A DNA stretch of 32,161 bases from a virus: the IMG/VR virus record IMGVR_UViG_3300023223_000437, positions 1 through 32,161 of that record. The stretch is one strand, 5' to 3'. The translations under genes were made by a program, and so were the position numbers. Below, one piece after another: positions 1 through 24,403 of this stretch. The notes below the pieces were generated by a model. It saw only the letters and a list, made by a program, of their open reading frames with translations, made no database searches and had not been told where the DNA came from. Each line of letters begins with the position of its first letter. Positions within the stretch are counted from its first letter, which is position 1.

Positions 1-1
1 A

Positions 2-286
2 AGAGGAGATATGTACGATTTATTCTTCCAAATGTCTCGATTGACCAAAGAGCGGGGAGCACTTAAACACGACGAAAGGCTCGATGCTTTGAGCATGGGA
101 ATCTACTGGTACGTGAACGTGCTTGGTAGGGACGTAGACGTTGAAGCGCGGGACCAGGAAGACAGATTATTTAAGGAGGCATGGGACAATAATTGGGTTT
201 TATTTAACTGCGCCGGGGCCAGCCATGCCGATTTGGGATTAATTAAGGATTCAAGCGGCTCTCGCCGCAAAGGGTGGATTAGATGA
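2..286 (+). CDS. Terminase large subunit, C-terminal fragment (T7 gp19-like, partial)
   Basis: The large terminase is the packaging motor: an ATPase plus an RNase H-fold nuclease that cuts concatemeric DNA at the portal. The frame is open to the left edge (codons from position 2), so the ATG at 11 is an internal Met and most of the gene lies outside the window. What remains matches the end of the nuclease domain of T7-like terminases: a QM-(S/T)-R segment followed by [17 protein letters not shown], close to the T7 gp19 pattern of KGAL-HDDRLDALALGI, whose Asp residues contribute to metal binding. The acidic stretch after it also fits the family. The stop overlaps the next ATG (ATGA at 283-286). 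Its position before the early genes shows that the window spans the late-to-early junction of a circularised or permuted genome. Confidence 0.85.
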
Positions 287-585
287 AATTTAGATTAAAG
301 AATGTGTTTGTCGAAGCGTACAGAGCAGAAACAGAGCAACAAGTATTCTTCTCCTCAGGGGCCGTGAAGGTGCCTGTAGGCCATTGGGTTGTCCTGGGCG
401 AGGATAGTAGGGTTATGGACCATGAGAGCTTCTGTGAGCTGTATGAGGCTCCTGTGGGGGACAGAGAGGCGCAGCGTATGATGGATGGACCGGAAGTTTG
501 TAGGCATGGTGTAGCTCTGAAAGACCCTGATGTTATCTGCAAAAGATGCAGTAACCAGTCAGAGCGGCTAGAATCAGCTAGATAA
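283..585 (+). CDS. Small protein with a PGD/W-type phage domain and a Cys cluster
   Basis: A 100-residue protein coupled to the terminase by ATGA. Residues about 28-55 ([21 protein letters not shown] followed by CELYEAP, written in two parts) resemble a small domain common in phage proteins, with a PGD-W-V-G core, an E/S-R-V strand and an F-x3-YE-P ending. The function of that domain is not known to me. The C-terminus has Cys/His residues (CRHG and CKRC) that could bind zinc. It is the last gene of the late block before the noncoding region. Confidence 0.6.
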
Positions 586-693
586 CCTGTAAAGTAGGCT
601 GAATAACTCTAACCCTCGTAGGGGGTAGGGGGGAATTCCCGCAATAAACCCGAATAATCCTCACTGCTGGGGGTTCTCCCTCAATTTAGTTAA

Positions 694-711
694 TTGACAG
701 TTGTATGTCAA
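694..711. promoter_or_regulatory. TTGACA-N6-TGTCAA palindrome, copy 1
   Basis: The sequence TTGACAGTTGTATGTCAA has perfectly inverted 6-bp arms around 6 bases. Read on the opposite strand, the copy inside the 1085 promoter matches it at 16 of 18 positions. The left arm is a consensus -35 box, but the -10 region downstream (TGTAGT at 717-722 or TAGTAT at 719-724) is poor. It may be a regulator binding site or a weak promoter. Confidence 0.5.
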
Positions 712-1084
712 GTACCTGTAGTATTAGGGAGATTTTAATGGAGGTATCCCCTCCCAACGAAACGTATATTTCCCCCCTATGCCCCCTCAATTGAATTGTA
801 GGGCCATGAGTATCAAAACATCACTTGTACCGGCAGCGCGGCGGTAGTTGAAAGTTCCGATAATGTAATTACAGACATCGTGGACGGCTTGGCGCTGGGA
901 GTTCAAGTGAAAATGTCGAGCACTGGCGCTGTAATGACAAGTGTAATGACAGAATACTGCGAGAATTTACTGCTATTATTAAAGAAAACAATACAAACGT
1001 ATTGCTTTTATGCGTTTTTACTGGGGAATTTGGTTATTTTGAGTGTTATTCTTTATTTATTTATAAATCTTTTCAAAATAACTA

Positions 1085-1112
1085 TTGACATTAAACTGTC
1101 AATGTTTATAAT
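1085..1112 (+). promoter_or_regulatory. Early sigma70-type promoter with overlapping palindrome (copy 2)
   Basis: Consensus -35 TTGACA (1085-1090) and -10 TATAAT (1107-1112), 16 bases apart, about 28 bases before the ATG of the first early gene. The -35 box is the left arm of the palindrome TTGACATTAAACTGTCAA (1085-1102), so a protein bound there would block or modulate the promoter. It is likely the main host-polymerase promoter of the early block. Confidence 0.8.
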
Positions 1113-1140
1113 ACAAGTATCACATTTTTAGGAAAATAAA

Positions 1141-1323
1141 ATGTATCTCATAGCCAAAGACGAAAATTATTTTACACTGTACCGCCTAGCATCGGGAAAC
1201 CTACACACCTTTTTTGGTCCCGATATTGCCGGAGCATATAGCACAAAATGCCCAATACGTGCTGCTGAAGTTGCAAAAAAAGAAGGCGGTACTGTTTTAG
1301 AATATCCTGAATTTACAAAATAA
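1141..1323 (+). CDS. Unknown early protein, 60 aa
   Basis: First gene after the early promoter, with an AGGA-type ribosome site 9 bases before the ATG. A small soluble protein with an aromatic N-terminal half (MYLIAKDENYFTLYRL) and a Lys/Glu-rich C-terminal helix. No family recognised. First early genes of T7-like phages are often host-takeover factors, but nothing in the sequence proves that here. Confidence 0.65.
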   Translation: MYLIAKDENYFTLYRLASGNLHTFFGPDIAGAYSTKCPIRAAEVAKKEGGTVLEYPEFTK

Positions 1324-1339
1324 AATCAATTCACACACA
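1322..1339 (+). repeat. Leader repeat AAAATCAATTCACACACA, copy 1
   Basis: An 18-base element just upstream of the gene at 1357. Copy 2 (1733-1750) differs at one base, and a shorter copy is at 3898-3909. Each copy sits directly before a ribosome site and start codon. Together they suggest a common early-gene leader or a protein/RNA binding site. Confidence 0.6.
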
Positions 1340-1356
1340 AAAAAGGGACTAGTACA

Positions 1357-1683
1357 ATGAAAGGAATTCAGAATTTTATCATAGATCGAATAAAAAAACA
1401 TGATTTCACAGTTGTGCGATTATGTGATAATTCTTTATGCGTATTGCAAAACAGCCTTAAATATTCTACAATGATTGATATTTCAATGCCAATTATGGGT
1501 CCAGGCTGTGCAACACACACGGATAGATCCATGTGGGATAAAGAAAAAGAAAAATACACTAAAATAATGCACAGGGGTAATTTTAAGATAAACCGGGCAA
1601 TATGGAAAAAAATATATAATGCCGCTAATGAAAAATACCCACACGAATCAAAATTATTCTGTAAACTTCCAGAATTAAAATGA
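1357..1683 (+). CDS. Unknown early protein, 108 aa
   Basis: Preceded by leader repeat copy 1 and an AAGGGA ribosome site. The protein is basic and mixed alpha/beta. Four Cys residues are scattered rather than arranged in a zinc motif. The gene ends directly before a factor-independent terminator, so it forms a two-gene unit with the 1141 gene. No family recognised. Confidence 0.7.
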   Translation: MKGIQNFIIDRIKKHDFTVVRLCDNSLCVLQNSLKYSTMIDISMPIMGPGCATHTDRSMWDKEKEKYTKIMHRGNFKINRAIWKKIYNAANEKYPHESKLFCKLPELK

Positions 1684-1690
1684 AACCCGG

Positions 1691-1730
1691 CTTGTCCCTT
1701 GAAATAATAGGGGCAAGTCTGATTTTATTT
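1691..1730 (+). terminator. Rho-independent terminator
   Basis: Stem CTTGTCCCT (1691-1699) pairs with AGGGGCAAG (1709-1717), with one G-U pair and a 9-base loop, followed by the T-rich tract TCTGATTTTATTT (1718-1730). It would reduce read-through from the 1085 promoter into the rest of the early block. Confidence 0.65.
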
Positions 1731-1732
1731 AT

Positions 1733-1750
1733 AAAATCAATTCATACACA
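1733..1750 (+). repeat. Leader repeat AAAATCAATTCATACACA, copy 2
   Basis: Matches copy 1 at 17 of 18 positions. It lies between the terminator tail and the ribosome site (TGAGGA, 1755-1760) of the gene at 1769. Confidence 0.6.
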
Positions 1751-1768
1751 ATTTTGAGGATTTATAGG

Positions 1769-2281
1769 ATGAGTACAGATTTTACAACAATCAATGAAAT
1801 AAAACGGGCCAACAAACAATTGGGACATTACTGGTTCCACGTTGACACAGTAAGCTATTTTGACGATACATTAGAATCAGGCGTGATTGATGGATCGTTT
1901 TTCATTCACTCAATCAAACATAAGCAGTGTGATCGTGAATATCTAATCGCTTTTGCTTGTGGTACGGGTGCGGTTGAAACAGTTGGGCCAAAATTCAAAA
2001 ACATAAACGCAGCTAGGGCGTGGATCAATGAACACGGCTATAAATATAGCGACTGTGGCGACGGCGAGACAAGCCGTCAAGGTAAAGAATTGCACGTCCG
2101 AGTGCCGACACATGACAGCGCTGGGATATTCTTGAATTATCGGGATTATTGCTCAATGAATATCAAAGAACAAACCGGCAAAGATTTCAATGAATTTGTA
2201 GACGATCCTACACCCTGCGAACCAACTCACTATGTTGTATCCGCCGATCAGATACTTAAGGCTTCGGGAGGTGCGGTATGA
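1769..2281 (+). CDS. Unknown early protein, 170 aa
   Basis: The start is ATG 1769, with TGAGGA 8 bases upstream. A TTG at 1754 in the same frame would extend the protein by five residues but has no ribosome site. The protein is soluble, mixed alpha/beta, with several Cys and His residues and an acidic Pro-rich stretch near residues 150-157. The longest protein of the early block, coupled by ATGA to the next gene. No family recognised. Confidence 0.7.
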   Translation: MSTDFTTINEIKRANKQLGHYWFHVDTVSYFDDTLESGVIDGSFFIHSIKHKQCDREYLIAFACGTGAVETVGPKFKNINAARAWINEHGYKYSDCGDGETSRQGKELHVRVPTHDSAGIFLNYRDYCSMNIKEQTGKDFNEFVDDPTPCEPTHYVVSADQILKASGGAV

Positions 2282-2598
2282 AAACCTTATCAACACCAGA
2301 AAAACACCAACTTAAAATAGCACGCAAAACCCTGAACATGTCAGACGCGAGCGCTTTTATTGCCGGTGGTATGAGTAAAGACGAAGCGCGGGCATTTCTG
2401 CAAAAAATCGGACATAAGATCAAAGAACCGTGGAGCCCTTGCTACCAGCTTGGCCGTCAGGCTTTCCGTGACGGTAAGAGTTCTATACCTTGCCAAGATC
2501 AGGATTTTCTTGATACACTGATAGGCGTGCCGGTAGGTGGTGCGCTCCCATCACTGAAAGAATGGACGGATGGTTGGCACTCGGAGGATCTCAAATGA
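2278..2598 (+). CDS. Unknown early protein, 106 aa
   Basis: Coupled by ATGA to the previous gene. The N-terminal half is helical and basic (residues about 8-45). A middle segment reads CYQLGRQAFRDGKSSIPC, a pattern seen in small phage and plasmid proteins where a G-x2-A-x2-D-G helix is followed by a short Cys-containing strand. The end (W-T-D-G-W) is compatible with a compact helical domain. Function unknown. Confidence 0.65.
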   Translation: MKTLSTPEKHQLKIARKTLNMSDASAFIAGGMSKDEARAFLQKIGHKIKEPWSPCYQLGRQAFRDGKSSIPCQDQDFLDTLIGVPVGGALPSLKEWTDGWHSEDLK

Positions 2599-2792
2599 AA
2601 ATATTCAGAATAATAGGACACATTTTATGTATCATTGGCCTAATGTTTCTCTTTTGGGTTGATTGGAGAATCGCAATCGGTGTGCTGCTGTTTATGTTGG
2701 GTGATTATACCGAGAACACGATAGAGCGGCTAGAGAATAACATTAAGTTGCTAGATGATATGAAGGATATTATCAAAGGGGCTGAAAAATGA
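2595..2792 (+). CDS. Small membrane protein, 65 aa
   Basis: The start is ATG 2595, overlapping the upstream stop (ATGA), with GGAGG about 8 bases before it. Two hydrophobic segments (residues about 5-21 and 25-40) form a hairpin in the inner membrane. A charged amphipathic helix rich in Glu, Asn and Lys follows. Small inner-membrane proteins of this kind are common among early phage genes. No specific role can be given. Confidence 0.65.
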   Translation: MKIFRIIGHILCIIGLMFLFWVDWRIAIGVLLFMLGDYTENTIERLENNIKLLDDMKDIIKGAEK

Positions 2793-2974
2793 GTAAATGT
2801 GAAAATGAGCCACCCGGTAAGAAAAAGAGTAGAATACAATGTAAAAATGTTGCAGTATTTGAATGTGAAGACTGCTATTTCAAAGTGTGTGAAAAATGCT
2901 TTGACTTAACAGACGGGGCTTGCAGTAGGTGCTATCCACCGCAATATATTTATATTGAAGAGCATGGGGATTGA
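2789..2974 (+). CDS. Cys-rich, probably zinc-binding protein, 61 aa
   Basis: Coupled by ATGA. It contains nine Cys residues, eight of them in pairs spaced as C-x7-C-x2-C-x4-C-x2-C-x8-C-x2-C, typical of a treble-clef or B-box-like zinc fold that mediates protein contacts. The N-terminus is Lys-rich and the C-terminus acidic and aromatic (YIYIEEHGD). No exact family assigned. Confidence 0.65.
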   Translation: MSKCENEPPGKKKSRIQCKNVAVFECEDCYFKVCEKCFDLTDGACSRCYPPQYIYIEEHGD

Positions 2975-2977
2975 GAA

Positions 2978-3172
2978 ATGACAAACTTGGAAACAAAACA
3001 AGCAAAAGAGATCCAAAACATGCGACAATTTATCGACGACCTACGCCACACTGTTGCCAACTCTGAAGGCGTGGTGGGATGGCACATGAATGGAGATGTC
3101 GCTCGATGGAGTGAATTTGGATATGATGAAATAGAATTTGAACCAGCAGAATACAGGCTTGATAATGAGTGA
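2978..3172 (+). CDS. Unknown acidic protein, 64 aa
   Basis: Starts three bases after the previous stop. Its first 30 residues form a predicted charged helix (QAKEIQNMRQFIDDLRHTVA). The rest is aromatic and acidic. The stop overlaps the next start. No family recognised. Confidence 0.6.
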   Translation: MTNLETKQAKEIQNMRQFIDDLRHTVANSEGVVGWHMNGDVARWSEFGYDEIEFEPAEYRLDNE

Positions 3173-3413
3173 AGACACATGTAAATCAGTTTTTAGCTCC
3201 ATTACCCTAAACGTGGAAGTTTTTCCTACGACAACTATAAATGACGCAGTTGAGGAAGCGCAGGAACTAGCTACCCGTCTCGGCATTCGTGCTATTAAGT
3301 TTGATTTCAACGGCGTAGAGGTATCGGTAAAATATAACCAACATAATACCACACCGATCATTAATGAGTATTATCAAAAACTTCACAATAAAGGAGATAA
3401 AAATGACAAATGA
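3165..3413 (+). CDS. Unknown small protein, 82 aa
   Basis: ATG 3165 overlaps the end of the previous gene and is preferred over a further upstream start that would overlap by 35 bases. The sequence suggests a beta-alpha-beta fold (residues about 13-22, 26-41, 44-60) like small ferredoxin-fold proteins, ending in a polar Lys/Asn tail. No family recognised. Confidence 0.55.
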   Translation: MSEDTCKSVFSSITLNVEVFPTTTINDAVEEAQELATRLGIRAIKFDFNGVEVSVKYNQHNTTPIINEYYQKLHNKGDKNDK

Positions 3414-3594
3414 ACAAGAGAAAATGTACTTATTCAATAGCGGCACTATGTGTCCATTTTGTGAATCGGACTATTTAGAGGGGGGCTCGCTTAATGTAGA
3501 GGATACGACAGCACTACAAACTATACACTGCCTTGATTGTAATAAGCAATGGACTGACACTTTTAGACGCATAAGCGCAAAGGAATTAAAATGA
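3403..3594 (+). CDS. Zinc-ribbon protein, 63 aa
   Basis: ATG 3403 has AAGGAG at 3391-3396 and overlaps the upstream stop. Two knuckles, CPFC (residues about 17-20) and CLDC (about 44-47), spaced by a beta-hairpin length, make a classic zinc ribbon followed by a strand ending in W-T-D-T-F-R-R. Such ribbons bind nucleic acid or RNA polymerase subunits. The partner is unknown. Confidence 0.7.
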   Translation: MTNEQEKMYLFNSGTMCPFCESDYLEGGSLNVEDTTALQTIHCLDCNKQWTDTFRRISAKELK

Positions 3595-3896
3595 ATAAAG
3601 AGAGATTTTGGGAAAAATGCAATGGTCCCGACTGCCATAACGAAGTTGATCCCTATGGTTTCATATTGATCGTCTGCCTTGATACGCTGTATTTCTGTTC
3701 ATGGGACTGCCTAGCAACCCACGCATTTACAAAAAGCGAGCTGTGGTCCATTGGGCCGCAAGAACATGAAAAATACGTTAAAGCCTTCTGGCATGTTTAT
3801 GTTCAGAACATGAAAGACCTTGAAAGTGAAAAATGCACAAAATGCGGATTGAGCTTACGAGACGACATACATTCACAGGAACACAAGCCAAAATAA
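3591..3896 (+). CDS. Cys-rich zinc-binding protein, 101 aa
   Basis: Coupled by ATGA. Cys pairs occur near the N-terminus (CNGPDCH), in the middle (CSWDC) and near the end (CTKCG followed by a His). This suggests a FCS/MYM-like N-terminal zinc finger and a second knuckle with a helix rich in His, Tyr and Trp between them. Function unknown. It is the third Cys-rich protein in this short stretch. Confidence 0.65.
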   Translation: MNKERFWEKCNGPDCHNEVDPYGFILIVCLDTLYFCSWDCLATHAFTKSELWSIGPQEHEKYVKAFWHVYVQNMKDLESEKCTKCGLSLRDDIHSQEHKPK

Positions 3897-3897
3897 G

Positions 3898-3909
3898 CCA
3901 ATTCACACA
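3898..3909 (+). repeat. Leader repeat, short copy 3 (CCAATTCACACA)
   Basis: Shares CAATTCACACA with the copies at 1322 and 1733 and also lies directly before a ribosome site (AGAGGAT, 3914-3920) and start codon. Confidence 0.45.
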
Positions 3910-3926
3910 TTTTAGAGGATAGACCG

Positions 3927-4100
3927 ATGGACGATACAAAAACTGTACTGAAAGCACTGAAACGGCTTGTGGATTCAGCCGGGACTGTGGCTTATGCCAT
4001 TGAAGGTGCTGGTGAGGATACGCCAAAAGATCTTCTGGATGAATTTTATGATGAGATTATTGCAGCAGAGTTGATCCTGCTTTTCAATCCGAGGGTTTGA
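3927..4100 (+). CDS. Unknown acidic protein, 57 aa
   Basis: ATG 3927 is preceded by TTTAGAGGAT and by leader repeat copy 3. The sequence is one helical acidic domain (MDDTKTVLKALKRLVDSAGT, then an Asp/Glu-rich helix, ending LLFNPRV). Nothing identifies a family. It is shorter than common gene-calling cutoffs and could be overlooked. Confidence 0.6.
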   Translation: MDDTKTVLKALKRLVDSAGTVAYAIEGAGEDTPKDLLDEFYDEIIAAELILLFNPRV

Positions 4101-4102
4101 AC

Positions 4103-4285
4103 ATGGAATACTACAATGACCACGTCGAGGAGTTAATTGAAACCGCCACTTGTTTAGATTGTGGCCGGGAATGTAATATAATTTATGAAGACGAGGGGAT
4201 AGGACCAAATGAGTTTTGGGGAATTCCTGGGAATGATGTTCAAATATGTGCCAGTTCTGACTGTTGTGGGAGTGAAGTGGACTAA
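4103..4285 (+). CDS. Small Cys-rich protein, 60 aa
   Basis: ATG 4103 follows the previous stop by two bases, with GAGGG upstream. It contains CLDCGREC and a distal C-A-S-S-D-C-C, so zinc binding is likely. It is acidic, and is the last early gene before the noncoding repeat block. Confidence 0.6.
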   Translation: MEYYNDHVEELIETATCLDCGRECNIIYEDEGIGPNEFWGIPGNDVQICASSDCCGSEVD

Positions 4286-4293
4286 AACCAAAA

Positions 4294-4672
4294 TTGCCCA
4301 GTAATAATCAAGCTATTACGGGATAATTCTAAAATTGCCCAGTTTGAATTCCGGGTGGGCAAAAATCGGGCAGGAAATTAACCAGTCATAGCGCGGAAAT
4401 TCTCTCTATTACCCAGTTACCCACTACTATTAAAAACTAGGAGGGATAGAGAGAATATACTATATAGTATTGAAAAAGTACTGGGTAAGTGGGTAGCACA
4501 TATTTTATGGTATTTAATTTCGCTCTATTACGAGATAATTCGGCGTGAATTGTGAATTCATCCTTTGTTTTTGAGATTGGGGCAAAATCCGAAAATATCG
4601 AATCCTTTGCTCTATTACGAGCTAATTCTCCAATATCAGATTGGCTATTCACTACTGGGCAAAAGTGGGCAA
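4294..4672. repeat. Origin-like block: two interleaved repeat families
   Basis: Family A is a 17-base direct repeat CTATTACG(A/G)G(A/C)TAATTC at 4313-4329, 4525-4541 and 4612-4628. Family B is A(C/G)TGGG(T/C)AA in both orientations. Reverse copies (TTGCCCAGT, TTACCCAGT, TTACCCACT) are at 4294-4302, 4335-4343, 4409-4417 and 4417-4425. Forward copies are at 4480-4488, 4488-4496 (last base differs), 4654-4662 and 4664-4672, with a partial forward copy at 4354-4362. The arms 4410-4427 and 4478-4495 form an 18-bp inverted repeat matching at 16 positions. Between the two orientations sits the perfect palindrome ATACTATATAGTAT (4457-4470). Repeats of this kind next to an initiator/helicase gene are typical of replication origins. 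The functional reading is inference. Confidence 0.6.
4297..4322 (+). terminator. Hairpin at the end of the early block (possible terminator)
   Basis: CCC-A-GTAATA (4297-4306) pairs with TATTAC-GGG (4314-4322): a 9-bp stem with one bulged A and a 7-base loop. The following bases (ATAATTCTAAAATT) are AT-rich but not a clear T-run, so it may be a weak terminator or only part of the repeat block. Confidence 0.35.
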
Positions 4673-4683
4673 TCGTTGAATAA

Positions 4684-4744
4684 TTGACACTTACCTATTT
4701 ATTTTATTTAATTCCAATTAATTAAATAAATAGTTTACTGTCAA
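4684..4744. repeat. Long AT-rich inverted repeat with TTGACA ends
   Basis: The left arm starts TTGACACTTACCTATTTATT on the + strand. The right arm read on the - strand starts TTGACAGTAAACTATTTATT. The arms meet around 4713-4716, giving an imperfect hairpin or cruciform about 30 bp long. Each end is a -35-like TTGACA, so it could also hold two convergent weak promoters (for example -10 TTTAAT at 4707-4712 on the + strand). Confidence 0.55.
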
Positions 4745-4774
4745 TAACTCCAAAAAAATAATTCCATTTTGCTC

Positions 4775-4802
4775 TTGCTTTACCGCAAATTCTGACTATA
4801 AT
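4775..4802 (+). promoter_or_regulatory. Sigma70-type promoter of the primase-helicase gene
   Basis: -35 TTGCTT (4775-4780), a 16-base spacer and -10 TATAAT (4797-4802). A second TATAAT overlaps at 4802-4807. Transcription would begin near 4809-4814, so the mRNA would start almost directly with the leader hairpin. Confidence 0.65.
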
Positions 4803-4811
4803 ATAATCATT

Positions 4812-4892
4812 CTCAAAGTGTGTGAGGTCTGCTTCTCCGGTGTTTGGCTGGAGAGGCAGCACACTTGAGAGAAAAATACGAACACTTTTGAG
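4812..4892 (+). promoter_or_regulatory. Structured 5' leader with alternative pairings
   Basis: Structure 1: CTCAAAGTGTG (4812-4822) pairs with CACACTTGAG (4860-4869), and inside it CTGCTTCTCC (4829-4838) pairs with GGAGAGGCAG (4850-4859) around an 11-base loop. Structure 2: the same left arm can pair with ACACTTTTGAG (4882-4892), a near copy of the first right arm, which reaches the purine-rich ribosome site just before ATG 4901. The two foldings exclude each other, as in attenuators or translational switches. No known riboswitch class is recognised. Confidence 0.55.
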
Positions 4893-4900
4893 AGAGAATA

Positions 4901-7228
4901 ATGACAGATAAATCAGTTCCCTACCACACTTTTTCCTTAACCAATATCGAGCCTGGAGACATTGGCTCGATCCAAAATTCCACTAATCCCTACTCCTGGC
5001 CGGAGTTCTGCACCCAATATAAAGACACTGTTTCCGGCCAACCATCTACAATAAAAAAGCCCAATCTACTTGGCTTATGCGCTGCGACTTTCGATAACGA
5101 CCATAGATCCGGCACGAATTTCCGGCAAATTACTATTCTTTCCCTGGATTTTGACGAAATCCCGAAAGAGATTAATTTCCGGGAAGTCTTTTCAAATTCA
5201 GACTATAACTACCTTCTAATAGAATCCCCATCGTCTTCCTGGTCACACAGGAAATACCGGGTTTATGTGCCTTTCGAGCAACCAATAACCAACGGCAAGG
5301 CTTATTCTCAAAACTACCTGGATTCGGTGGCAGCAATCCATCCCCACTTACTAAAATTCGTGGACAGGCAGTGTAAAGACTGCGCCAGGTTCATGTATAT
5401 CCCTAACCAGTCCAAGCTTTCTACCTTAACTTATGAAACCACAAAAAAATGCCTGTCTGCTTCATTCATTGAAACCCCTATTCTACCCGACACTACCCAA
5501 ACTCCTCCTATTACACCACCAATATCTTGCACTACAGATATAAGGATAGGCCAGATATGGGCTCTCCCGACTTTCGATCTCACTCTAAACACAGCGCCGC
5601 CGGGAGTACCCAAGCGCCCCACATCCGATTCAGGGCATCATCTGGTTACCCCAGAAGGCATAAAGGACTTCAACCACCCTACAGCCCCTAATTCTTATGA
5701 GTTCACAACATGGCGGGAGCTTCATGCCTTATTCTCTGCAATCCACCGAGGCAAACTCCTACCATCGTCAGTCCATCCCTATTACCTACAGAAATGGCAC
5801 GAAGCCGGAGACCCTATTCTTACAGAGCAGCAAATAAACCCCACGAAAATCAAAATCGTGGAAGACGGCACACGAGGGAGATATTACGCTGTTCTCAAGG
5901 GAGAAGCCAATGGCTTACAACCATTAGACCCGGTAAAAAATGAATTCGGTGTGGTCCTGGCCAGAATAAAGAATCCCGGCATCCCTACCCTTGCAGAACG
6001 AGAAGACATAGAGTATTTTTCGTCCGAAAACAATTCCTGGAGCAAAATCCCGCCAGATAATATAAAGTCAAATATCCGGGCAGTCTGTCTAACCAAAAAA
6101 ATCATTCTTGGCTGGCCGGAACCTGGACTATATTATTCAGCCCAGGAAAACAAAATATGTGAAGCCCTACACGGAACCCGGACTTTTGCGCCAATCCACC
6201 ACCCCATTATAAGCACATATCTCCTCTCATTACCCCTAGACCATGAGTGGCTTCTCGATTACCTACACTATCTACCACAAGTCCAAGAGCATGCACTGCC
6301 CTGGATCCACATGTTTGGCCCTTCTCAAGCCGGGAAGACATTGTTTGCCCAACTCTGTGCATCACTATGGACGGAGCCGCCGGTAACGGGCCTATTTATG
6401 TCCAATTTTCAGTCAGGAATGGGCACTTCTCCCATTATCCTTATGGACGAAGAGATCCCATCGAGCCAAAACAAGGCCATATCTGTCCTAAATGCCTGTA
6501 AAATCTTGGTAACAGCAAAGGATAATGAAGCAAATAAGAAATTCGAGGTTCCTCTTACCGTTACAGGCTATCACCGCCTTTTCTCTACAGAAAACTCAGA
6601 CGATCCTGCTGCCCTCAACATCCCAGACTCTCTACACCTGGGCGCACTCGTTCGCCGTTGTTTGGTTGTCGGATTCGGGCAGGAGCAAAAAGACTGGCTC
6701 AACCAACAAACGGCAGAGGAAATAGGCTCTTGGCTCAAACATAAATTCGGAGAACATTTGGCATGGTTAAAGCAGCCGGAAACAAGACGCGCAAGGGATC
6801 CCCAGGGTTTAATAGCCGTCCAGCCTTATGAAAACCAGCATTTATCTGAAACAAATCCCACAGGAGAGCTTCCTAGAGGGGTTATGGAGACAGTAGTGGC
6901 TGTTTTGAATAGCCAAGACCCTGAAATGGGCTATTTTGGGGAAAATAGGGACGAATACTTCCTGAATCTGAATAGTGGGGCATTTCAAGACAAATTAATT
7001 GCTAGGAAAATCACGTTGAAATCAAAAAGTGCTAAGTATTTGAAGTCTATGATTATGAGATGCGTAAAAGGCTCTAAATACGAAAGGACAATGGTAGGAG
7101 GGGATAGACAAAGGGTTATTTCCCTGCCTTTTGGGGCATTAAGTGATTTAGCAGAAAATTTAGGGCTTGAATTAAAGCTTACAGAAAAGCTAAAACAAGA
7201 GGAAAAAGAAAAAATTAAAAATAAATAG
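4901..7228 (+). CDS. Primase-helicase fusion (AEP-like primase + SF3-like helicase)
   Basis: A 775-residue protein expected to prime and unwind DNA at the fork. The N-terminal third resembles phage primase-polymerase (AEP-type) domains: a LDFDE strand with D83 and D85, a basic strand K-Y-R-V (R120), and a C-x2-C-A-R segment (C158, C161, R163) before a FMYIPNQ strand. A Pro/Thr-rich linker follows (about 190-215). The C-terminal half has a Walker A GPSQAGKT (K479, T480), a Walker B IILMDEE (D516, E517) and later an Arg-rich LVRRC segment (possible Arg finger), fitting an SF3/D5-like helicase. It replaces the DnaB-type gp4 of T7. It follows an origin-like block, its own promoter and a structured leader. 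The first about 1,950 bases are C-rich and G-poor on the coding strand, the last about 350 G-rich. Subfamily assignment of the N-terminus is less sure than the helicase. Confidence 0.8.
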   Translation: MTDKSVPYHTFSLTNIEPGDIGSIQNSTNPYSWPEFCTQYKDTVSGQPSTIKKPNLLGLCAATFDNDHRSGTNFRQITILSLDFDEIPKEINFREVFSNSDYNYLLIESPSSSWSHRKYRVYVPFEQPITNGKAYSQNYLDSVAAIHPHLLKFVDRQCKDCARFMYIPNQSKLSTLTYETTKKCLSASFIETPILPDTTQTPPITPPISCTTDIRIGQIWALPTFDLTLNTAPPGVPKRPTSDSGHHLVTPEGIKDFNHPTAPNSYEFTTWRELHALFSAIHRGKLLPSSVHPYYLQKWHEAGDPILTEQQINPTKIKIVEDGTRGRYYAVLKGEANGLQPLDPVKNEFGVVLARIKNPGIPTLAEREDIEYFSSENNSWSKIPPDNIKSNIRAVCLTKKIILGWPEPGLYYSAQENKICEALHGTRTFAPIHHPIISTYLLSLPLDHEWLLDYLHYLPQVQEHALPWIHMFGPSQAGKTLFAQLCASLWTEPPVTGLFMSNFQSGMGTSPIILMDEEIPSSQNKAISVLNACKILVTAKDNEANKKFEVPLTVTGYHRLFSTENSDDPAALNIPDSLHLGALVRRCLVVGFGQEQKDWLNQQTAEEIGSWLKHKFGEHLAWLKQPETRRARDPQGLIAVQPYENQHLSETNPTGELPRGVMETVVAVLNSQDPEMGYFGENRDEYFLNLNSGAFQDKLIARKITLKSKSAKYLKSMIMRCVKGSKYERTMVGGDRQRVISLPFGALSDLAENLGLELKLTEKLKQEEKEKIKNK

Positions 7229-7237
7229 TTTTTGCTA

Positions 7238-7265
7238 TTGACATTTGACTGTTTACAGCTATAAT
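7238..7265 (+). promoter_or_regulatory. Strong sigma70-type promoter of the replication block
   Basis: -35 TTGACA (7238-7243), a 16-base spacer and -10 TATAAT (7260-7265): exact consensus boxes. It starts 10 bases after the primase-helicase stop and about 35 bases before the ATG at 7301, which has a TACGGAGG ribosome site. The -35 region (TTGACATTTGACTGTTTA) resembles the 1085 promoter palindrome but its right arm is degenerate (TGTTTA instead of TGTCAA). Confidence 0.85.
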
Positions 7266-7300
7266 GTAAGTATTGAAATAAAAAATACGGAGGAAATAGG

Positions 7301-7744
7301 ATGCTCACACAGGATATAAAAGAGGCGATTAAGAAATCGCTCCCGGCGGAGGTCGGTGATGTTTTGAAAGCCCGGTTAAAAGAGGCAGACTCGCTGGAAG
7401 ATCTTGTCGAGGCTTTGAAGCGAGATAAAAAGGCTTTAGATGAGCGTTGCGCCATCTATCTACAAAAAGACAGTTGTTTTGTTGACTTGGAGAAAAAAGA
7501 AGCCGAATTAAAAGAGAAAACGGTGGAGATTGAGAAACGCGAAAAGGGGCTGGATGTCGAGCTGCTTACAGTAAAAATAAATTGTGCAGAAGACAAAGCA
7601 AAAGCCTTTCACGATTTTACTACAGGGTTAATGAGAAATATCGAATACCGTAGTTCTGCTTTTGGTAATTCGACAAAACACACGGACAATGGTTGCTCTT
7701 ATACAGATCCATATAACCACAACACGGACACTAAAGCAGAATGA
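7301..7744 (+). CDS. Coiled-coil protein, 147 aa
   Basis: First gene of the replication block, with TACGGAGG eight bases before the ATG. The first about 110 residues are highly charged helix with heptad-like Leu/Ile spacing (a long Lys/Glu coiled coil around residues 55-90). The last 30 residues are Asn/Thr/His-rich and probably disordered. No enzyme motif. Its strong promoter and ribosome site imply high expression. It is coupled by ATGA to a second coiled-coil protein, and the two might interact. Confidence 0.65.
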   Translation: MLTQDIKEAIKKSLPAEVGDVLKARLKEADSLEDLVEALKRDKKALDERCAIYLQKDSCFVDLEKKEAELKEKTVEIEKREKGLDVELLTVKINCAEDKAKAFHDFTTGLMRNIEYRSSAFGNSTKHTDNGCSYTDPYNHNTDTKAE

Positions 7745-8163
7745 AATTCATAATAAGTGGAACTTTTTTAATCAACGATCCAGCACTACTCAATGAAATA
7801 AAAGCAGTAGAGGAGATCGGATCTTATGGAGACTACAAGTATAAGGTACTTGGAGATACAGAGAACGTCACAGCGGTTAAAGACGAGCGTATAATAGTCG
7901 ATGCCGGGGATGCTGAAATCTTTGAGGATAAAATAGCTGCTGAAAAACTAAAAGAAGCGGAAGAGACAATATCTAAACTCGAAGTAGAGAAAAGCCAGGC
8001 GGAGACTCTTAAAAGCATTGTTGCCGAAAAGAAACGAGGCTTGGCCCTGGTCGATATTGAAGCATTTGTCGAATCTAAAAACTCTGTATGGGATTTGAGG
8101 AATTTATCTTCGGAGGATTGTCAAAAATGGTTACGTTTACAAAAGGAAAAAGAAGATGTTTAA
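7741..8163 (+). CDS. Unknown coiled-coil protein, 140 aa
   Basis: Coupled by ATGA. The N-terminal 60 residues look like a small beta domain (MKFIISGTFLINDP, then strands ending RIIVDAG). Residues about 65-100 are a Lys/Glu/Ala coiled coil. The C-terminus holds short helices with a W-D-L-R-N-L motif. The stop overlaps the start of the next small gene. No family recognised. Confidence 0.65.
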   Translation: MKFIISGTFLINDPALLNEIKAVEEIGSYGDYKYKVLGDTENVTAVKDERIIVDAGDAEIFEDKIAAEKLKEAEETISKLEVEKSQAETLKSIVAEKKRGLALVDIEAFVESKNSVWDLRNLSSEDCQKWLRLQKEKEDV

Positions 8164-8883: not shown

Positions 8884-9443
8884 ATCTTAAACCTGGACAT
8901 AAAGTAATGATAAAAACCTGGGAGGATATGGAGAAAGAGTTTGGTCTCCATAAATCTCATCACAAAACAATAGACACTGTTTTCTGGACTCACAAATTGG
9001 AAGAAGAGATTCCTGATAATAGAATAATTATTTTGGGCGAAGAGGGGACCGATTCTGCCGGAGATTTCTTTGGTTGGAAAATGTGGAACATTTACTCTGG
9101 AGCAATAGCGTCTGTATGTATAGAAGAGACGAGTAATAGTGCTAAATGGGCTCCTCCCGGCCAAGTAGAAACGGATGTCCAAGACGGGCTTATTGAATCT
9201 AAACTCCCCGAAGATGTAGAAAAGACTTATGAAGTAGAACACCACAGGGCAGAGGCTCTGGAAGCTATGGTAAACGGAAAAAACATAGAGATTGCCCGGC
9301 TTGAAAAAGAACTCAACAAGCGGGAGGATGTGGGTGGTACTACGGCTGATTTCTGCGAACTCCAATACAGGTGTAATAGATCCGAAGAGCGGTTGAGAAT
9401 TATTGAAGCTATTTTGAATCCAGATAGAGACGAATACGAATGA
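8880..9443 (+). CDS. Unknown protein, 187 aa, with SH3-like start and coiled coil
   Basis: Coupled by ATGA. It begins LKPGHKVMIKTWEDMEKEFG, a pattern found in small phage proteins with an SH3-like beta-barrel (G-x-K-V-x-I). The middle holds aromatic strands (FFGWKMWNIYSG). Residues about 115-150 are a coiled coil (EHHRAEALEAMV, IARLEKELNKRE), and a short helical tail follows. No catalytic motif. It ends by overlapping the nuclease gene. Confidence 0.6.
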   Translation: MNLKPGHKVMIKTWEDMEKEFGLHKSHHKTIDTVFWTHKLEEEIPDNRIIILGEEGTDSAGDFFGWKMWNIYSGAIASVCIEETSNSAKWAPPGQVETDVQDGLIESKLPEDVEKTYEVEHHRAEALEAMVNGKNIEIARLEKELNKREDVGGTTADFCELQYRCNRSEERLRIIEAILNPDRDEYE

Positions 9444-10816
9444 GAGTCTCTGTCTCACAAATAAAGAATTTCCGGCTTTGTCCAACAAAGTGGTATATCT
9501 CTTCTGTCCTTAAAATAAGAGAACCAGAAAAGCCTGCTACAGAACTTGGGAAAAAATTCCATGATGCGGCTGAAGCGTATTTGGCTGGAGAATACTTGGA
9601 AAATAAAGAGCCTAAAATACAGACTATGTTGGATAATGCAAAGCCTTTTCTTGACAGCTATTTAGGTGATGATTATACGTCCCTAGAAATAGAGAAAGAA
9701 ATAAGGGGAGAATTATGTGAAGGAATAGACTACTTGGGATATATAGATATTTGGAATCCAATAACAAAAGAAGTGACAGACTTGAAGACGGGTAATCCTG
9801 ACTATTTTCTTACAGAATACCAGCTACCTAATGATCTTCAACTAAACATATATGCACATGATAGATTCATGGCAGATGAAGAGTCTTTAGATCCTTCTGA
9901 ATACACCTTAACTCATATTCAATCCTCTTCAAAAACTCCACATAAATGCTCGAAGATTTCTGCGCCTGTGAGTAACTCTAAAATTCATAAAATATGGGCG
10001 GAAGCACAAGAAACTGCAAAAGACATGAAATCTGTAGTAGATAATGTTAAAGACTTGGATTGGGAAGTAATGGACAAGGCTTTGGCTAGGAATAAAGGGG
10101 CTTGTAATAAATACGGGGGATGTCCTTATAAGGAAATATGTTGGCAGGGGGTTGATCCTGAATACGTTAGAAAATCATTTACAGAGGAAAATAAGGAGAA
10201 AGAAATGTTACCAAAAAATCATCCATTTACGGAGGGAAATAGTGATATGGACAATAAAATGACTTTTAAGGAAAAAATTGCTGCGGCGAAAGCGGCGGGG
10301 GGCGCAACTGCGGAGATTGCTGATAGTGTCGCTTCGATAGCGGAGGATTTAGAGTCTGCTAAAGAAAAGATACTTGCTGACAAAGAATCTCCCTCGGAGC
10401 CTGTAAAGGAGAAACGAAAACCGGGTCGGCCTAAGAAAGAAAAGCCCGGACCAGGGGACATAATTCCTGCGGATAAACTACCGCCCCCTGAGTTGTTAGA
10501 GGTTGTTGAGCCTAGACTGACTACACAATTCTGCATCGGAGCAATTCCTTTCAAATCAGGAATCCAAGTCACTCCGTTTTCAGAAATACTTCAGCCTTTT
10601 GAAAAAGAAATGGCAGAAAAGTTTAAGCTAACTGACATCCGGCAGGATAAATTTAATGAACCTGTGAAAGCACTTTGTAATAGTAAGGCAAAGATACTGG
10701 AAAAATGTAAGGAATTTGAATATGTCTTTGTGGATGAAAGAGATCCTGTTCAAGACTTGGTTTTTAGGTGTGTGGATAATGGGGAGTTTATTGTTTGGCG
10801 GAGTATTGGAAGGTGA
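9440..10816 (+). CDS. PD-(D/E)XK nuclease, Cas4/RecB-like, fused to an AT-hook region
   Basis: A 458-residue predicted DNA exonuclease with an iron-sulfur cluster. Residues 1-240 show H41 (KKFHDAAEAY), D103 (GYIDIW), D114-L-K116 (TDLKTG) and a QLNIYA helix: the RecB-family active site. C14 near the N-terminus and C222, C228, C234 provide four Cys for a 4Fe-4S cluster as in Cas4/AddB. After residue 245 comes an Ala/Lys helix, then KRKPGRPKKEKPG with the AT-hook core G329-R330-P331, then a separate C-terminal domain (about 360-458) that I do not recognise. It probably replaces the T7 gp6 exonuclease in recombination. TACGGAGG at 10228-10235 before an in-frame ATG at 10247 could allow a shorter C-terminal product. 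Confidence 0.8.
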   Translation: MRVSVSQIKNFRLCPTKWYISSVLKIREPEKPATELGKKFHDAAEAYLAGEYLENKEPKIQTMLDNAKPFLDSYLGDDYTSLEIEKEIRGELCEGIDYLGYIDIWNPITKEVTDLKTGNPDYFLTEYQLPNDLQLNIYAHDRFMADEESLDPSEYTLTHIQSSSKTPHKCSKISAPVSNSKIHKIWAEAQETAKDMKSVVDNVKDLDWEVMDKALARNKGACNKYGGCPYKEICWQGVDPEYVRKSFTEENKEKEMLPKNHPFTEGNSDMDNKMTFKEKIAAAKAAGGATAEIADSVASIAEDLESAKEKILADKESPSEPVKEKRKPGRPKKEKPGPGDIIPADKLPPPELLEVVEPRLTTQFCIGAIPFKSGIQVTPFSEILQPFEKEMAEKFKLTDIRQDKFNEPVKALCNSKAKILEKCKEFEYVFVDERDPVQDLVFRCVDNGEFIVWRSIGR

Positions 10817-12737: not shown

Positions 12738-12905
12738 ATGAAAGTCATAGTAAAGAAGGAAGTGCCTTATGTCAATGTCGTTTTTAATTTGGGGCACACT
12801 ACAGTTGCTTTAGGCTTATTGGGTGTGGAGGAGCAAACTGAGCTTATTGGTGTTTTGGAAGAAGCGGTACATTATTTGAGAGAATATAGGGGAGATGTGC
12901 CATAA
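12738..12905 (+). CDS. Unknown small protein, 55 aa
   Basis: ATG 12738 follows the previous stop by four bases, with GGGGTGGGG upstream, and the stop overlaps the helicase start (TAATG). The open frame extends upstream through the previous gene but that part is a shadow. The protein has one strand (VIVKKEVPYVNVVFNLG) and one acidic helix. Function unknown. Confidence 0.55.
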   Translation: MKVIVKKEVPYVNVVFNLGHTTVALGLLGVEEQTELIGVLEEAVHYLREYRGDVP

Positions 12906-14758
12906 TGCACCCAGTATTCAAAAGACTAAGAGAAAGAGTTCAAATCCTAGAAACAGATATGGACAGAATCCTTTCTCTTCCTATCCGCCAGTCTTGGCCA
13001 GAAGAAGACAGGAACGCAATCCGCACTATATTCTCCTCTAATAAACTCAAGTTAAGAGACATCCAGGCAGATGCGCTACTAGAATTAGCTCATGTAGGAT
13101 CTCTTTTTGGAATAGTTGGAGTAGGTTGGGGGAAAACCATTATTTCATTACTCGCAGGAGTGGTTACTGATTCAAAAAAGACTTTATTAATAGTCCCTCC
13201 AGAAGTCTGTTATCAATTAACTGAAAGGGATATTCCACAAATTCAACAAGAATACAATATGGAGTTTAATTATGTTTGTTTCAAAGGAAGAAATAAAGAA
13301 GACAGGGCTATACAAGCTAATAAAACTTATTCTCTGTATATTCTGCCTTATAGTCTGTTGTCTCAGCCTGATGCCTATAATCTTCTTGAGTCTATTATGC
13401 CGGACTTATGTGTCCTTGATGAAGCGCACAGGGTCAAAAGAAGAGAATCTGCCCGGTCCAAAAGACTCTTTAACTACTTAAACAAAATAAATACAGACTG
13501 CAAATTAGTTGCCCTTTCCGGCACTATAACCCGCACATCTCTTTTCGATTACTGGCACATTATAAAAAGATGTCTAGGTAATAACTCCCCTCTACCCAAC
13601 CTATACTCTACTATTAAAGAGTGGAATGACTTTATAGGGGTATCCCAGGGAGATACACGGGGAGAAGACATTACTAAATCCCAAATGGCTTCTATAAAGC
13701 CTGTAATGGATTGGGTAAACGATAATTCTCTTAATGGCCACTTATACAATTCACAAAGGGACCAAGCCAGAAGCACTTTTGCATTAAGATTAAAAACTGC
13801 GCCAGGAGTAGTACAGACAGAATACCAGAGTATAGACAGTTCACTGTTAATTGACAATTCTGATATAAAAATCCCGGAAAAAATTTTAGCGGAATTAGAG
13901 ATATTGGATTCTCTGTGGGTAGATCCCAATGGAGACACTATTACAGAGGTTATACAGTATGTTGCGACTGCTTCTCAAATTTCAAGTGGATTTTATTACC
14001 AGTTAAAATGGCCGGATGGTGTGGAAGACTGGGTGCTTGACCAACAACAATTAAAGTGTGAGTTGGATAAAGAATTGAGAAAGTTTATAAATTCTGGAGT
14101 GAGACGAGGGTATGATACACCTATGCTTGTGTATAAAGGTCTTAAAAACCGCGATAAAGAAGTAAAGGTTTTGCAGGAAATGTATGACGGATGGCTTAGC
14201 CTTGTAAATGGTAGGGTTATTCCTGATAGGAATAGTAGTGTGGTTTGGTTGGATGATTATAAAATCAGAAAAGCAATGGCTTGGGCCATGTTGGTAGTTA
14301 ATATCAGCTCAAGTGGGAGTATCATTTGGTATAATTTCAAAGCAGTGGGAGAAATGTTAGCGAAAAGAATGCCGGGAGCACTATTCTGTCCTGCTGGATG
14401 CGATTACGACACCATGCTAGACCCGAATAAAATTATAATAGCATCTATCCCCGCCCACAGCACAGGAAAAAATCTCCAGCATTTTTCCAATCAATTAATT
14501 GTAGATCCTCCCAGGGGAGGGGCTGTTTGGGAACAAATGTTAGGTCGGACTCATAGGCAGGGGCAGAAAGAAGACGAAGTCCACGCAAAAGTCTTGGCAT
14601 CTACAGAGTTTGAGAAAGCAAAGATTTGGGAAGCGTGGCACGATTGTGAATATGTACAGTTGACGGGAGGTGGCCGACAGAAAATGCTCATGGCAGACTG
14701 GGCCTTGCCTCCTACAGAGAAGCACTATAAGGTGTACGATAAATCTAATCCACTTTAA
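12905..14758 (+). CDS. SNF2/SF2-type DNA helicase
   Basis: A 617-residue ATP-dependent DNA translocase. In order: a Q-motif-like LRDIQADALLELAH, Walker A GVGWGKT (K77), motif II LDEAH (D172-H175), motif III LSGT, and at the C-terminus the SNF2/SF2 signature MLGRTHRQGQ (R548, R551) of motif VI. The spacing between the two RecA-like halves is long, with a low-similarity insertion in the middle. It probably remodels forks or drives recombination together with the nearby nuclease and resolvase. The coding strand is C-rich over the first half and G-rich around 13900-14350, a change inside one gene. Confidence 0.85.
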   Translation: MHPVFKRLRERVQILETDMDRILSLPIRQSWPEEDRNAIRTIFSSNKLKLRDIQADALLELAHVGSLFGIVGVGWGKTIISLLAGVVTDSKKTLLIVPPEVCYQLTERDIPQIQQEYNMEFNYVCFKGRNKEDRAIQANKTYSLYILPYSLLSQPDAYNLLESIMPDLCVLDEAHRVKRRESARSKRLFNYLNKINTDCKLVALSGTITRTSLFDYWHIIKRCLGNNSPLPNLYSTIKEWNDFIGVSQGDTRGEDITKSQMASIKPVMDWVNDNSLNGHLYNSQRDQARSTFALRLKTAPGVVQTEYQSIDSSLLIDNSDIKIPEKILAELEILDSLWVDPNGDTITEVIQYVATASQISSGFYYQLKWPDGVEDWVLDQQQLKCELDKELRKFINSGVRRGYDTPMLVYKGLKNRDKEVKVLQEMYDGWLSLVNGRVIPDRNSSVVWLDDYKIRKAMAWAMLVVNISSSGSIIWYNFKAVGEMLAKRMPGALFCPAGCDYDTMLDPNKIIIASIPAHSTGKNLQHFSNQLIVDPPRGGAVWEQMLGRTHRQGQKEDEVHAKVLASTEFEKAKIWEAWHDCEYVQLTGGGRQKMLMADWALPPTEKHYKVYDKSNPL

Positions 14759-15207: not shown

Positions 15208-15266
15208 GGTTTTTTGGATATGGGTGGGGGACAATATAGTTCCCTGCCCCTTACGGAGGAAACGGA
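15208..15266 (+). promoter_or_regulatory. Short spacer with hairpin before the DNA polymerase gene
   Basis: One of the few noncoding gaps in the replication block. GGGGAC (about 15226-15232) can pair with GTTCCC around AATATA, with one G-U pair. It is followed by a TACGGAGG ribosome site and ATG 15267. A T-run (TTTTTT) precedes the hairpin rather than following it, so it is not a standard terminator. It could be an mRNA processing or stability element. Confidence 0.3.
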
Positions 15267-17165
15267 ATGAACATAGGATTTGACACAGAAACATATTTAA
15301 TAGGGCCGAGACAACAGGCCCCTAAGTTAGTTTGTAGTACCATGCACAATGGAGAAACTGGTGATTTATACGATAGGGAGTTTAGTCTTAAAACCCCACA
15401 AGACAGCAGTGAAAATAAATCTATCTTTATTCTCTGTAATGCAGCTTATGATATGTCCGTACTTTGTGCTAACAATCAAGACTTATTTCCGTTTGTGTTT
15501 AGTCTGTATAAAAGGAAGAAAGTTAAAGACATTCAAATAAATGAAAAGCTGCATATTCTTAAAGATTCTGGAAAAATAGAAGGAGAAAAATACCATCTCG
15601 CTAACCTTGTTAAGAAACACTTGGGTATAGACATTTCCCAGGATAAAAACGACCCCAACTCCTGGCGGTTGCGTTATTCAGAACTTGACGGCATTCCAAT
15701 AGAAGACTGGCCACAGGAGGCAAAAGATTATGCACTACAGGATGCGGAACTCACATTAAAAGTATGGGAAGCACAAGAAAAAGTCTACGGTCCAGCACTT
15801 AATGACTTAGATAGCCAGTGCTTTGCAGATTTCTGCCTACGCCTTATGGCAGTCTGCGGAATACATGTAGACCCTGTTGCAGCCAAAAAACTCAAAGAAA
15901 AATCCCAGGCAGCAGTAGATTCTCAAATGGAATACCTTATAGAGAACGGCATCTATAGTTATAAAGGAAAAGCTAATCCGAAATTGACTCAATCGCGCAA
16001 AGCAGTGCAGGCCAGGGTAGTAGATGTTTGTGACAAACTAAATTCCCCTGTATCAAAGACAGATAAAGGATCAGTTTCTACAGACAAAAATGTTATGGAG
16101 GAGATTTATGGTAATGATCCTGTCTTGGATGCGCTTGCAGATATAAGTGTAGACAAAGGAATACTTGAAAAGTATGTTCCTGTTCTTACTAATAGTTTCC
16201 ACATAGTCCACCCTAATTATGATGTCTTGAAAAAGACTGGCCGGACTTCTAGTTATGGAATGAGTAAGAAAGAAGCTAAAGAGGGGGAAAGGTATAGTCT
16301 AAACATCCAACAACTTGCGCGGGAGGGTGGTGTAAGGGAGTGTTTTGTACCTAGACCTGGATTTATTTTCCTGGCCATAGACTATAGTTACATAGAGTTA
16401 TGTGCTTTGGCTTATGTATGCCAACAGAAATTGGGGCTCCGGCAGGATGAGTTACATTTATTTAACTCCATTGTTGAGGGAAAAGATCCTCATTTGGTAA
16501 CTGCCGGGAATATATTACACCGGGAGTACGAAGATTTGTTGGCTAATAAGAAAGATCCTGAAGTTAAAGAGGCTAGACAGTTAAGTAAGGCTGCAAACTT
16601 CGGATACCCCGGAGGCTTGGGGCCAGCTACCTTTAGAGCTTATGCCAAAGGAACTTACGGTTTGGTTATTTCAGAAGCGGAAGCAAAGAATTTAAGGAAT
16701 ACATGGTTTAAGACTTACCCTGAGATGAGAAAGTATTTTGATTTTATTGCGAGTCTGGAAGACACTGCTTTGGGGGGGTTCCAGGTAGAACAGTTGGGGA
16801 CAGATAGAGTAAGAGCCCAGGCATCTTTTACAAGTGCGTGTAATGCTTGGTTTCAGGGACTTGTTGCAGATGGGGCTAAGAAAGCTATTTGTGCTGTGTC
16901 TGAGTTTTGCTATGCGTCTATGGATCAAGAATTTAGTGTTGCTCCGGTAGCCTTTATCCATGATGAGATTATTTTCGAGGTAGAAGAGGAGGATCACAGC
17001 TATGATAGAACGGCATTGGCGTTGAGTGGCATAATGATAAAAGCCATGTCTGAATTCATGCCAGGAATTCCAGTCAAGACAGAGTGCTCTCTTATGAGAA
17101 GGTGGTATAAAAATGCCGGGCCTGTTTATGATGAGCAAGGACAACTAATTATTTGGGAGCCGTAA
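15267..17165 (+). CDS. Family A DNA polymerase with 3'-5' exonuclease
   Basis: A 632-residue replicative polymerase. Exonuclease motifs are complete: D6-T-E8, N58-x3-D62 and Y155-x3-D159. Polymerase motif A is DYSYIEL (D372, E377), motif B R437-x3-K441 with KAANFGYPGG, and motif C HDE (H565, D566, E567). The residue equivalent to E. coli Phe762 is Phe (F445), and the O-helix Tyr766 position is Gly (G449) in a YPGG motif. Motif A ends ELC instead of the usual ELR. It is shorter than T7 gp5 (704) because no thioredoxin-binding insertion is evident. It lies after the SSB-like gene with a strong TACGGAGG site. Confidence 0.95.
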   Translation: MNIGFDTETYLIGPRQQAPKLVCSTMHNGETGDLYDREFSLKTPQDSSENKSIFILCNAAYDMSVLCANNQDLFPFVFSLYKRKKVKDIQINEKLHILKDSGKIEGEKYHLANLVKKHLGIDISQDKNDPNSWRLRYSELDGIPIEDWPQEAKDYALQDAELTLKVWEAQEKVYGPALNDLDSQCFADFCLRLMAVCGIHVDPVAAKKLKEKSQAAVDSQMEYLIENGIYSYKGKANPKLTQSRKAVQARVVDVCDKLNSPVSKTDKGSVSTDKNVMEEIYGNDPVLDALADISVDKGILEKYVPVLTNSFHIVHPNYDVLKKTGRTSSYGMSKKEAKEGERYSLNIQQLAREGGVRECFVPRPGFIFLAIDYSYIELCALAYVCQQKLGLRQDELHLFNSIVEGKDPHLVTAGNILHREYEDLLANKKDPEVKEARQLSKAANFGYPGGLGPATFRAYAKGTYGLVISEAEAKNLRNTWFKTYPEMRKYFDFIASLEDTALGGFQVEQLGTDRVRAQASFTSACNAWFQGLVADGAKKAICAVSEFCYASMDQEFSVAPVAFIHDEIIFEVEEEDHSYDRTALALSGIMIKAMSEFMPGIPVKTECSLMRRWYKNAGPVYDEQGQLIIWEP

Positions 17166-24147: not shown

Positions 24148-24403
24148 TCCAGCCGCAGCGGCCTTTTTTACTGTGGCAGGGACAGCAGTTGCATCTCAGA
24201 TTGCAAAACCAAAACGGCCCCCGCCCACAATACAGATACCTGAGCCAGCGGCTAAAGGTGAAACGGCTGTCCGGGCAGAAGAATCCGCCAGGAGTAGGCT
24301 TTTATCTGAACAGGAAGCTGGCCGGACCCGTAGACGGAGACTGCGTTTGCGTGGAGCTACACAAGAGCCCGCTGAAATTGGGTTGAAAATTCCGATTATC
24401 TAA
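24128..24403 (+). CDS. gp7.3-like small virion / tail assembly protein
   Basis: A 91-residue protein. It starts MLNPVCNPAAAAFFTVAG and ends with a basic Arg-rich tract (GRTRRRRLRLRG) and a hydrophobic KIPII end. T7-like phages have a protein of this length and composition (gp7.3: Ala/Lys-rich, Arg-rich C-terminus) directly before the portal gene. It overlaps both neighbours (20 bases upstream, one base with the portal). Assignment by position and composition. Confidence 0.6.
   Translation: MLNPVCNPAAAAFFTVAGTAVASQIAKPKRPPPTIQIPEPAAKGETAVRAEESARSRLLSEQEAGRTRRRRLRLRGATQEPAEIGLKIPII

Follow-up and report, generated by a model that had tools for sequence, protein, structure and literature searches.

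What does a strongly folded leader do in front of a replication gene? The question arises upstream of a putative PrimPol-helicase gene in a virus record of 32,161 bases, which was analysed over its whole length (the window) and is that of a divergent T7-like phage. Phage replication initiators are needed at the correct level and with the correct timing. If the leader controls PrimPol output, the locus would present compact RNA control of an unusual replication gene in a divergent T7-like phage; if the hairpin serves mRNA stability or processing, it is a useful annotation of expected biology. The genes that define the setting are:

4901-7228, + strand: putative PrimPol-helicase of 775 residues (AEP primase plus SF3-type helicase; weak profiles and motifs)
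9440-10816: exonuclease
12905-14758: DEAD/SNF2-like helicase
15267-17165: PolA
21018-23495: single-subunit RNA polymerase
24403-26031: head-tail connector
26048-26908: T7-type capsid assembly protein

At the left end, ahead of the early genes, positions 11-286 hold the C-terminal part of a terminase-large-subunit-like protein, a fragment which suggests that the genome in the record is permuted or partial. The N-terminal part of the PrimPol-helicase matches phrog_256 and phrog_9765 (phage primase and helicase families) weakly, residues 472-569 give a weak DUF5906 match, and the translation contains LSLDFDE, the P-loop GPSQAGKT and, downstream of it, ILMDEE. These motifs and weak profiles point to a product that is probably an AEP primase fused to an SF3-type helicase. 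A single-sequence AlphaFold prediction of the protein had a pLDDT of 32.7, which is too low to use. The GC skew of the gene is reversed relative to the neighbouring genes; a foreign origin based on this skew was set aside, since GC3 and third-position C are similar to those of the RNA polymerase gene.

The leader and the elements that accompany it are laid out as follows:

4779-4807, + strand: sigma-70-like promoter TTTACC-17-TATAAT (consensus scan, 10/12 matches)
4797-4802, + strand: TATAAT overlapping the best promoter match (consensus scan)
4810-4822, + strand: common left arm TTCTCAAAGTGTG (ATTCTCAAAGTGTG, about 4809-4822), which pairs with arm A, B or C
4829-4859, + strand: core hairpin of 13 pairs with loop GTTTG, present in every state
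4860-4873, + strand: arm A, CACACTTGAGAGAA, which lengthens the core hairpin while the ribosome site stays open
4882-4894, + strand: arm B, ACACTTTTGAGAG, whose paired state covers the weak ribosome site
4889-4900, + strand: weak Shine-Dalgarno region (GAGAGAG) and spacer before ATG 4901
4925-4932, + strand: arm C, a third partner of the left arm, within the PrimPol coding sequence

Read from 4809, the leader consists of ATTCTCAAAGTGTGTGAGGT, the core CTGCTTCTCCGGT-GTTTG-GCTGGAGAGGCAG, and then CACACTTGAGAGAAAAATACGAACACTTTTGAGAGAGAATA to 4900. State A pairs 4816-4822 with 4860-4866 and 4810-4814 with 4869-4873, which gives a helix made of the 13 bp core, a 6-nt bulge and then 7 and 5 bp; state B pairs 4810-4823 with 4882-4894, across the weak ribosome site. 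A sequence-only reading of this DNA had described one left arm with two alternative downstream arms, and the complementarity is real at 4860-4873 and 4882-4894. Arms A and B stand as partners and as they were placed, but they are not the only two, the third partner C having been missed. The same reading had put a stable hairpin at the extreme 5' end of the mRNA. The hairpin is present, but its terminal position is conjectural: the best promoter match (4779-4807) predicts a start at about 4814, inside the left arm, so that part of this arm would be lost, and the overlapping TATAAT (4797-4802) predicts a start at about 4809.

The core is the constant part of this structure. Positions 4829-4859 were paired with a probability of at least 0.99 for all starts, 3' ends and energy sets tried, and no other 35-nt local hairpin on either strand of the window is as strong (-23.2 versus -19.4 for the next). 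As + strand RNA the core folds at -21.9 kcal/mol and as - strand RNA at -11.5, and the corresponding values for the whole leader are -36.5 and -24.7; the + strand RNA folds better because several of the pairs are G-U. This asymmetry suggests selection on RNA, not on a DNA palindrome. Among 1605 segments of 93 nt the leader ranks first in stability, with a z of about -4.6 (25 shuffles), and 4800-4930 folds with a z of -3.06. The structural side of a stability element, one of the two functions that the sequence-only reading had offered, is well supported by this exceptional strand-specific core.

Ranked by strength, the top three local hairpins in the window are:

4827-4861, + strand: strongest, before the PrimPol gene
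15217-15251, + strand: second strongest, immediately ahead of the PolA ribosome site, no U tract
1687-1721, + strand: third strongest, intergenic

All three fall entirely between genes and on the + strand, an arrangement matched in 5 of 20000 trials of annotation rotation, and for each of them the + strand fold is far stabler than the - strand fold. What was established in silico is the fold of the PrimPol leader, with its strand specificity and rank, and the occurrence of similar + strand intergenic hairpins; the placement of the top three favours mRNA processing or stability/protection elements. We therefore propose that the PrimPol leader is a known kind of leader hairpin, which protects or processes its mRNA, and give this proposal about an even chance. 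In the third hairpin region (1687-1740) the strongest stem is followed by a T-rich stretch and then by a second small hairpin; this region could be a terminator or a processing site.

An intrinsic terminator was rejected for the PrimPol leader. Intrinsic terminators have a GC-rich stem with a U tract immediately after it; the stem here is followed by CACACTTGAGAGA, without a U tract, and the terminator scan made no call. Attenuation by a leader peptide of the erm type was likewise rejected, as the small GTG frames at 4818-4868 and 4822-4911 are without an upstream Shine-Dalgarno sequence.

The competing arms raise the other function that had been offered, a translational switch. In such a switch the left arm would shift between A, with the ribosome site open, and B, with the site closed, maybe with C as a third state, either during transcription or upon binding of a protein, e.g. 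PrimPol. A second arm as good as B is rare by chance (21 hits in 2000 shuffles of 4874-4900, and 6 among 2907 segments of the window), and when duplexes of the left arm with the upstream regions of 43 genes were compared, the PrimPol leader gave the best one (-13.6, the next being -10.9), which speaks for a switch. However, competing alternative stems sharing as many bases appeared in 61-80 of 300 shuffles (20-27%), so that the presence of two rival stems as such is no more than chance.

Partition-function folding, which the sequence-only reading had named as a check, bears out that A and B can both be reached: for RNA 4808-4920, A was populated at about 0.35, B at 0.49 and the core at 1.0. 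Folding was then compared across starts, 3' ends and four energy sets, in separate processes. For RNA ending at 4900, B ranged from 0.21 to 0.88 depending on start and energy set and was ahead of or comparable to A, and with the 3' end at the start codon B was ahead in most runs, which is in line with a switch in that B could be a transient state. Similar populations of A and B were found mainly in RNA cut at 4900-4920. Once at least 60 bases of coding sequence were present, B was at most 0.26 with all four energy sets, and A or C was usually dominant. This argues against a switch and against the dominance of B; a bistable leader is one with similar populations of two conformers in the full mRNA, and the leader is not predicted to behave in this way. 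With starts at or beyond 4813, C reached about 0.84-0.85 in RNAs ending at 4941-5000 and was lower in longer RNAs, while read-through RNA from 4700 that included coding sequence had A at 0.66-0.86. The balances between A, B and C hang on 1-2 kcal/mol, which is within model error, and on the predicted start; that the outcome flips with start site and energy set also counts against a switch.

The estimated cost of opening the ribosome site is about 4.6 kcal/mol for the free ensemble as well as for A; for B, which alone closes the site, it is about 10. The second pairing does, as had been claimed, reach the ribosome site of ATG 4901, and the difference of about 6 kcal/mol between B and A is what a switch would use. 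For starts at 4813-4815, where C dominates, the cost was about 5.3 kcal/mol. The anti-Shine-Dalgarno duplex of the PrimPol gene (-5.5) ranks 25th of 43 genes, and its ribosome site is predicted to be the 10th most open of 42, i.e. more open than most, which again is unfavourable to a switch. The minority population of B, the low opening cost and the rank of 10 among 42 lead to the prediction that the message is open by default and that the closed state can be reached but is seldom populated. A translational switch is hence possible, unproven and weakly supported, and we consider it unlikely; multi-state translational control by the PrimPol leader is given a low-to-moderate chance. It is tempting to speculate on a three-state cotranscriptional leader, where the 5' arm would move from A to B to C as successive ACACTT copies emerge, closing the replicase ribosome site for a set time and making the initiator level depend on the speed of transcription or on a bound protein, but we think this hardly probable.

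The arms contain repeated motifs and lie at the end of a long gap, which brings in two explanations at the DNA level:

4286-4900: gap of 615 bases before the PrimPol gene
4294-4672: iteron-like TGGGYAA cluster and 23-nt repeats, candidate origin
4678-4750: AT-rich inverted repeat (palindrome)
4687, 4816 (inverted), 4861, 4882 and 4926: ACACTT-type repeats

The ACACTT-type repeats could be operator or iteron sites for a DNA-binding protein that regulates the PrimPol gene, the pairing of the arms being a by-product. This would account for the clustering of ACACTT, five of whose 19 window copies fall within 245 bases around the promoter, and for AAGTGT, which occurs four times, in both orientations, within 127 nt; a fourfold cluster of this type of hexamer is found in one other region of the window only, the upstream iteron region. 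Spacing and orientation of the copies are, however, uneven, and the T run between ACACTT and GAGA differs from copy to copy, a variability that suits RNA bulges, and with them a switch, better than a rigid DNA site. An operator would also leave the strand-specific core hairpin unexplained, and we regard it as very improbable. Operator-like elements were observed elsewhere in the window: TTGACA-N6-TGTCAA palindromes are present at 694-711, 1085-1102 and 7238-7255 (the last one degenerate), and at 1085 and 7238 the TTGACA of the palindrome doubles as the -35 box in a perfect host-type promoter. Another repeat, TAAAATCAATTCAYACACAA, is found at 1321-1340 and 1732-1751, upstream of two early genes.

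The second explanation is that the gap 4286-4900 is the origin used by the PrimPol-helicase, and that the hairpin, extruded or single-stranded, aids assembly or priming. The gap holds 8 of the 15 window copies of TGGGYAA and, in its iteron-like region, three 23-nt repeats of the GCTCTATTACGAGATAATTC type, and the AT-rich palindrome is directly upstream of the leader. AEP-SF3 replicases have been tied to stem-loop origins, in some phages as well (PMC4234260): the plasmid pRN1 requires a stem-loop for replication, a similar one has been proposed for phage BIP-1, and RSF1010 has iterons together with stem-loops (ssi hairpins) that its primase recognises (PMC4234260). A stem-loop adjoining a putative primase-helicase gene is a feature that the present locus shares with pRN1 and BIP-1, but there it lies downstream of the gene (PMC4234260), whereas here it lies upstream, has G-U pairs in its stem and is accompanied by iteron-like repeats. 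No large stem-loop was found downstream of the PrimPol gene at 7229-7300, where the best hairpin was -4.4 on the + and -7.4 on the - strand. The core is, moreover, much weaker as DNA (-8.7 on the + and -5.3 on the - strand), and the iteron part would work without need of the hairpin. An origin role of the hairpin thus appears quite improbable. Its position ahead of the gene, its G-U pairs and its low stability as DNA make it more likely that the hairpin is part of the mRNA, and the upstream repeats look like a better origin candidate. More distinctive is the context given by the gap 4286-4900 as a whole: in a T7-like phage, an AEP-type replicase is preceded by iteron-like repeats together with an AT-rich palindrome and a hairpin.

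Relatives of the leader were sought in several ways. The primase had no relative by tblastn among phages and plasmids, and scans of viral and genome contigs with peptide patterns, which reach mainly close relatives, gave no relative of primase or leader. Alignments of the RNA polymerase and the connector had their nearest relatives at about 30-40% identity among the matches listed, and no primase or leader was seen among these matches. Motif scans and a DNA pattern for the core stem returned no record with primase or leader, a distant blastn of 1-8000 gave no relative of either, and none of 99 distinct viral records carries them; the sets searched may omit records very near the window. In Rfam, no covariance model reached the gathering score in the window, where only eukaryotic families at chance level (E>0.3) appeared, in agreement with the earlier statement that no known riboswitch matches.

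For the preferred reading, protection or processing of the mRNA, we infer transcription from 4779-4807 and any effect on expression. Within the + strand mRNA, the core 4829-4859 would serve as an element of the 5' leader or between cistrons. Most likely it would either guard the PrimPol-helicase message from decay at the 5' end or mark a cut by a double-strand RNase, which would give the PrimPol gene its own message. Pairing with arm A would make the hairpin longer and leave the weak ribosome site usable, while arms B and C would vie for the left arm and may trim translation somewhat, with B as a short-lived or minority state. Against protection or processing it can be held that the leader is a single sequence with no relative among the sets searched, that the adjacent iteron-like repeats make a DNA role possible, and that several good partners of one arm go beyond simple protection. 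T7-type RNase III sites are regular double helices some two turns long. As with such sites, a strong hairpin is found here between genes on the transcribed strand.

Among known systems, the closest precedent for a switch is the lambda cIII leader, with alternative folds of which one closes the ribosome site and with a conformation that is altered by RNase III binding (PMC2777011); in the PrimPol leader, by contrast, the closed state is predicted to be a minority once coding sequence is present, and one arm has three partners. Phage mRNAs of T7 are processed by RNase III, which matters if several of them are to be translated optimally (PMC4858673). The likeness to the T7 RNase III signals, such as R1.1 (PMC4858673), lies in strong coding-strand hairpins between the genes of a T7-like phage, but the stem here is broken by a 6-nt bulge, a host-type promoter is directly upstream, and the cleavage is hypothetical. 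The 5' UTR of E. coli ompA stabilises its mRNA (PMC2777011). Relative to ompA as described there, the 5'-end position of our hairpin depends on a predicted promoter and the extra competing arms are particular to the PrimPol leader; what the two have in common is a strong leader hairpin ahead of the ribosome site of a translated gene.
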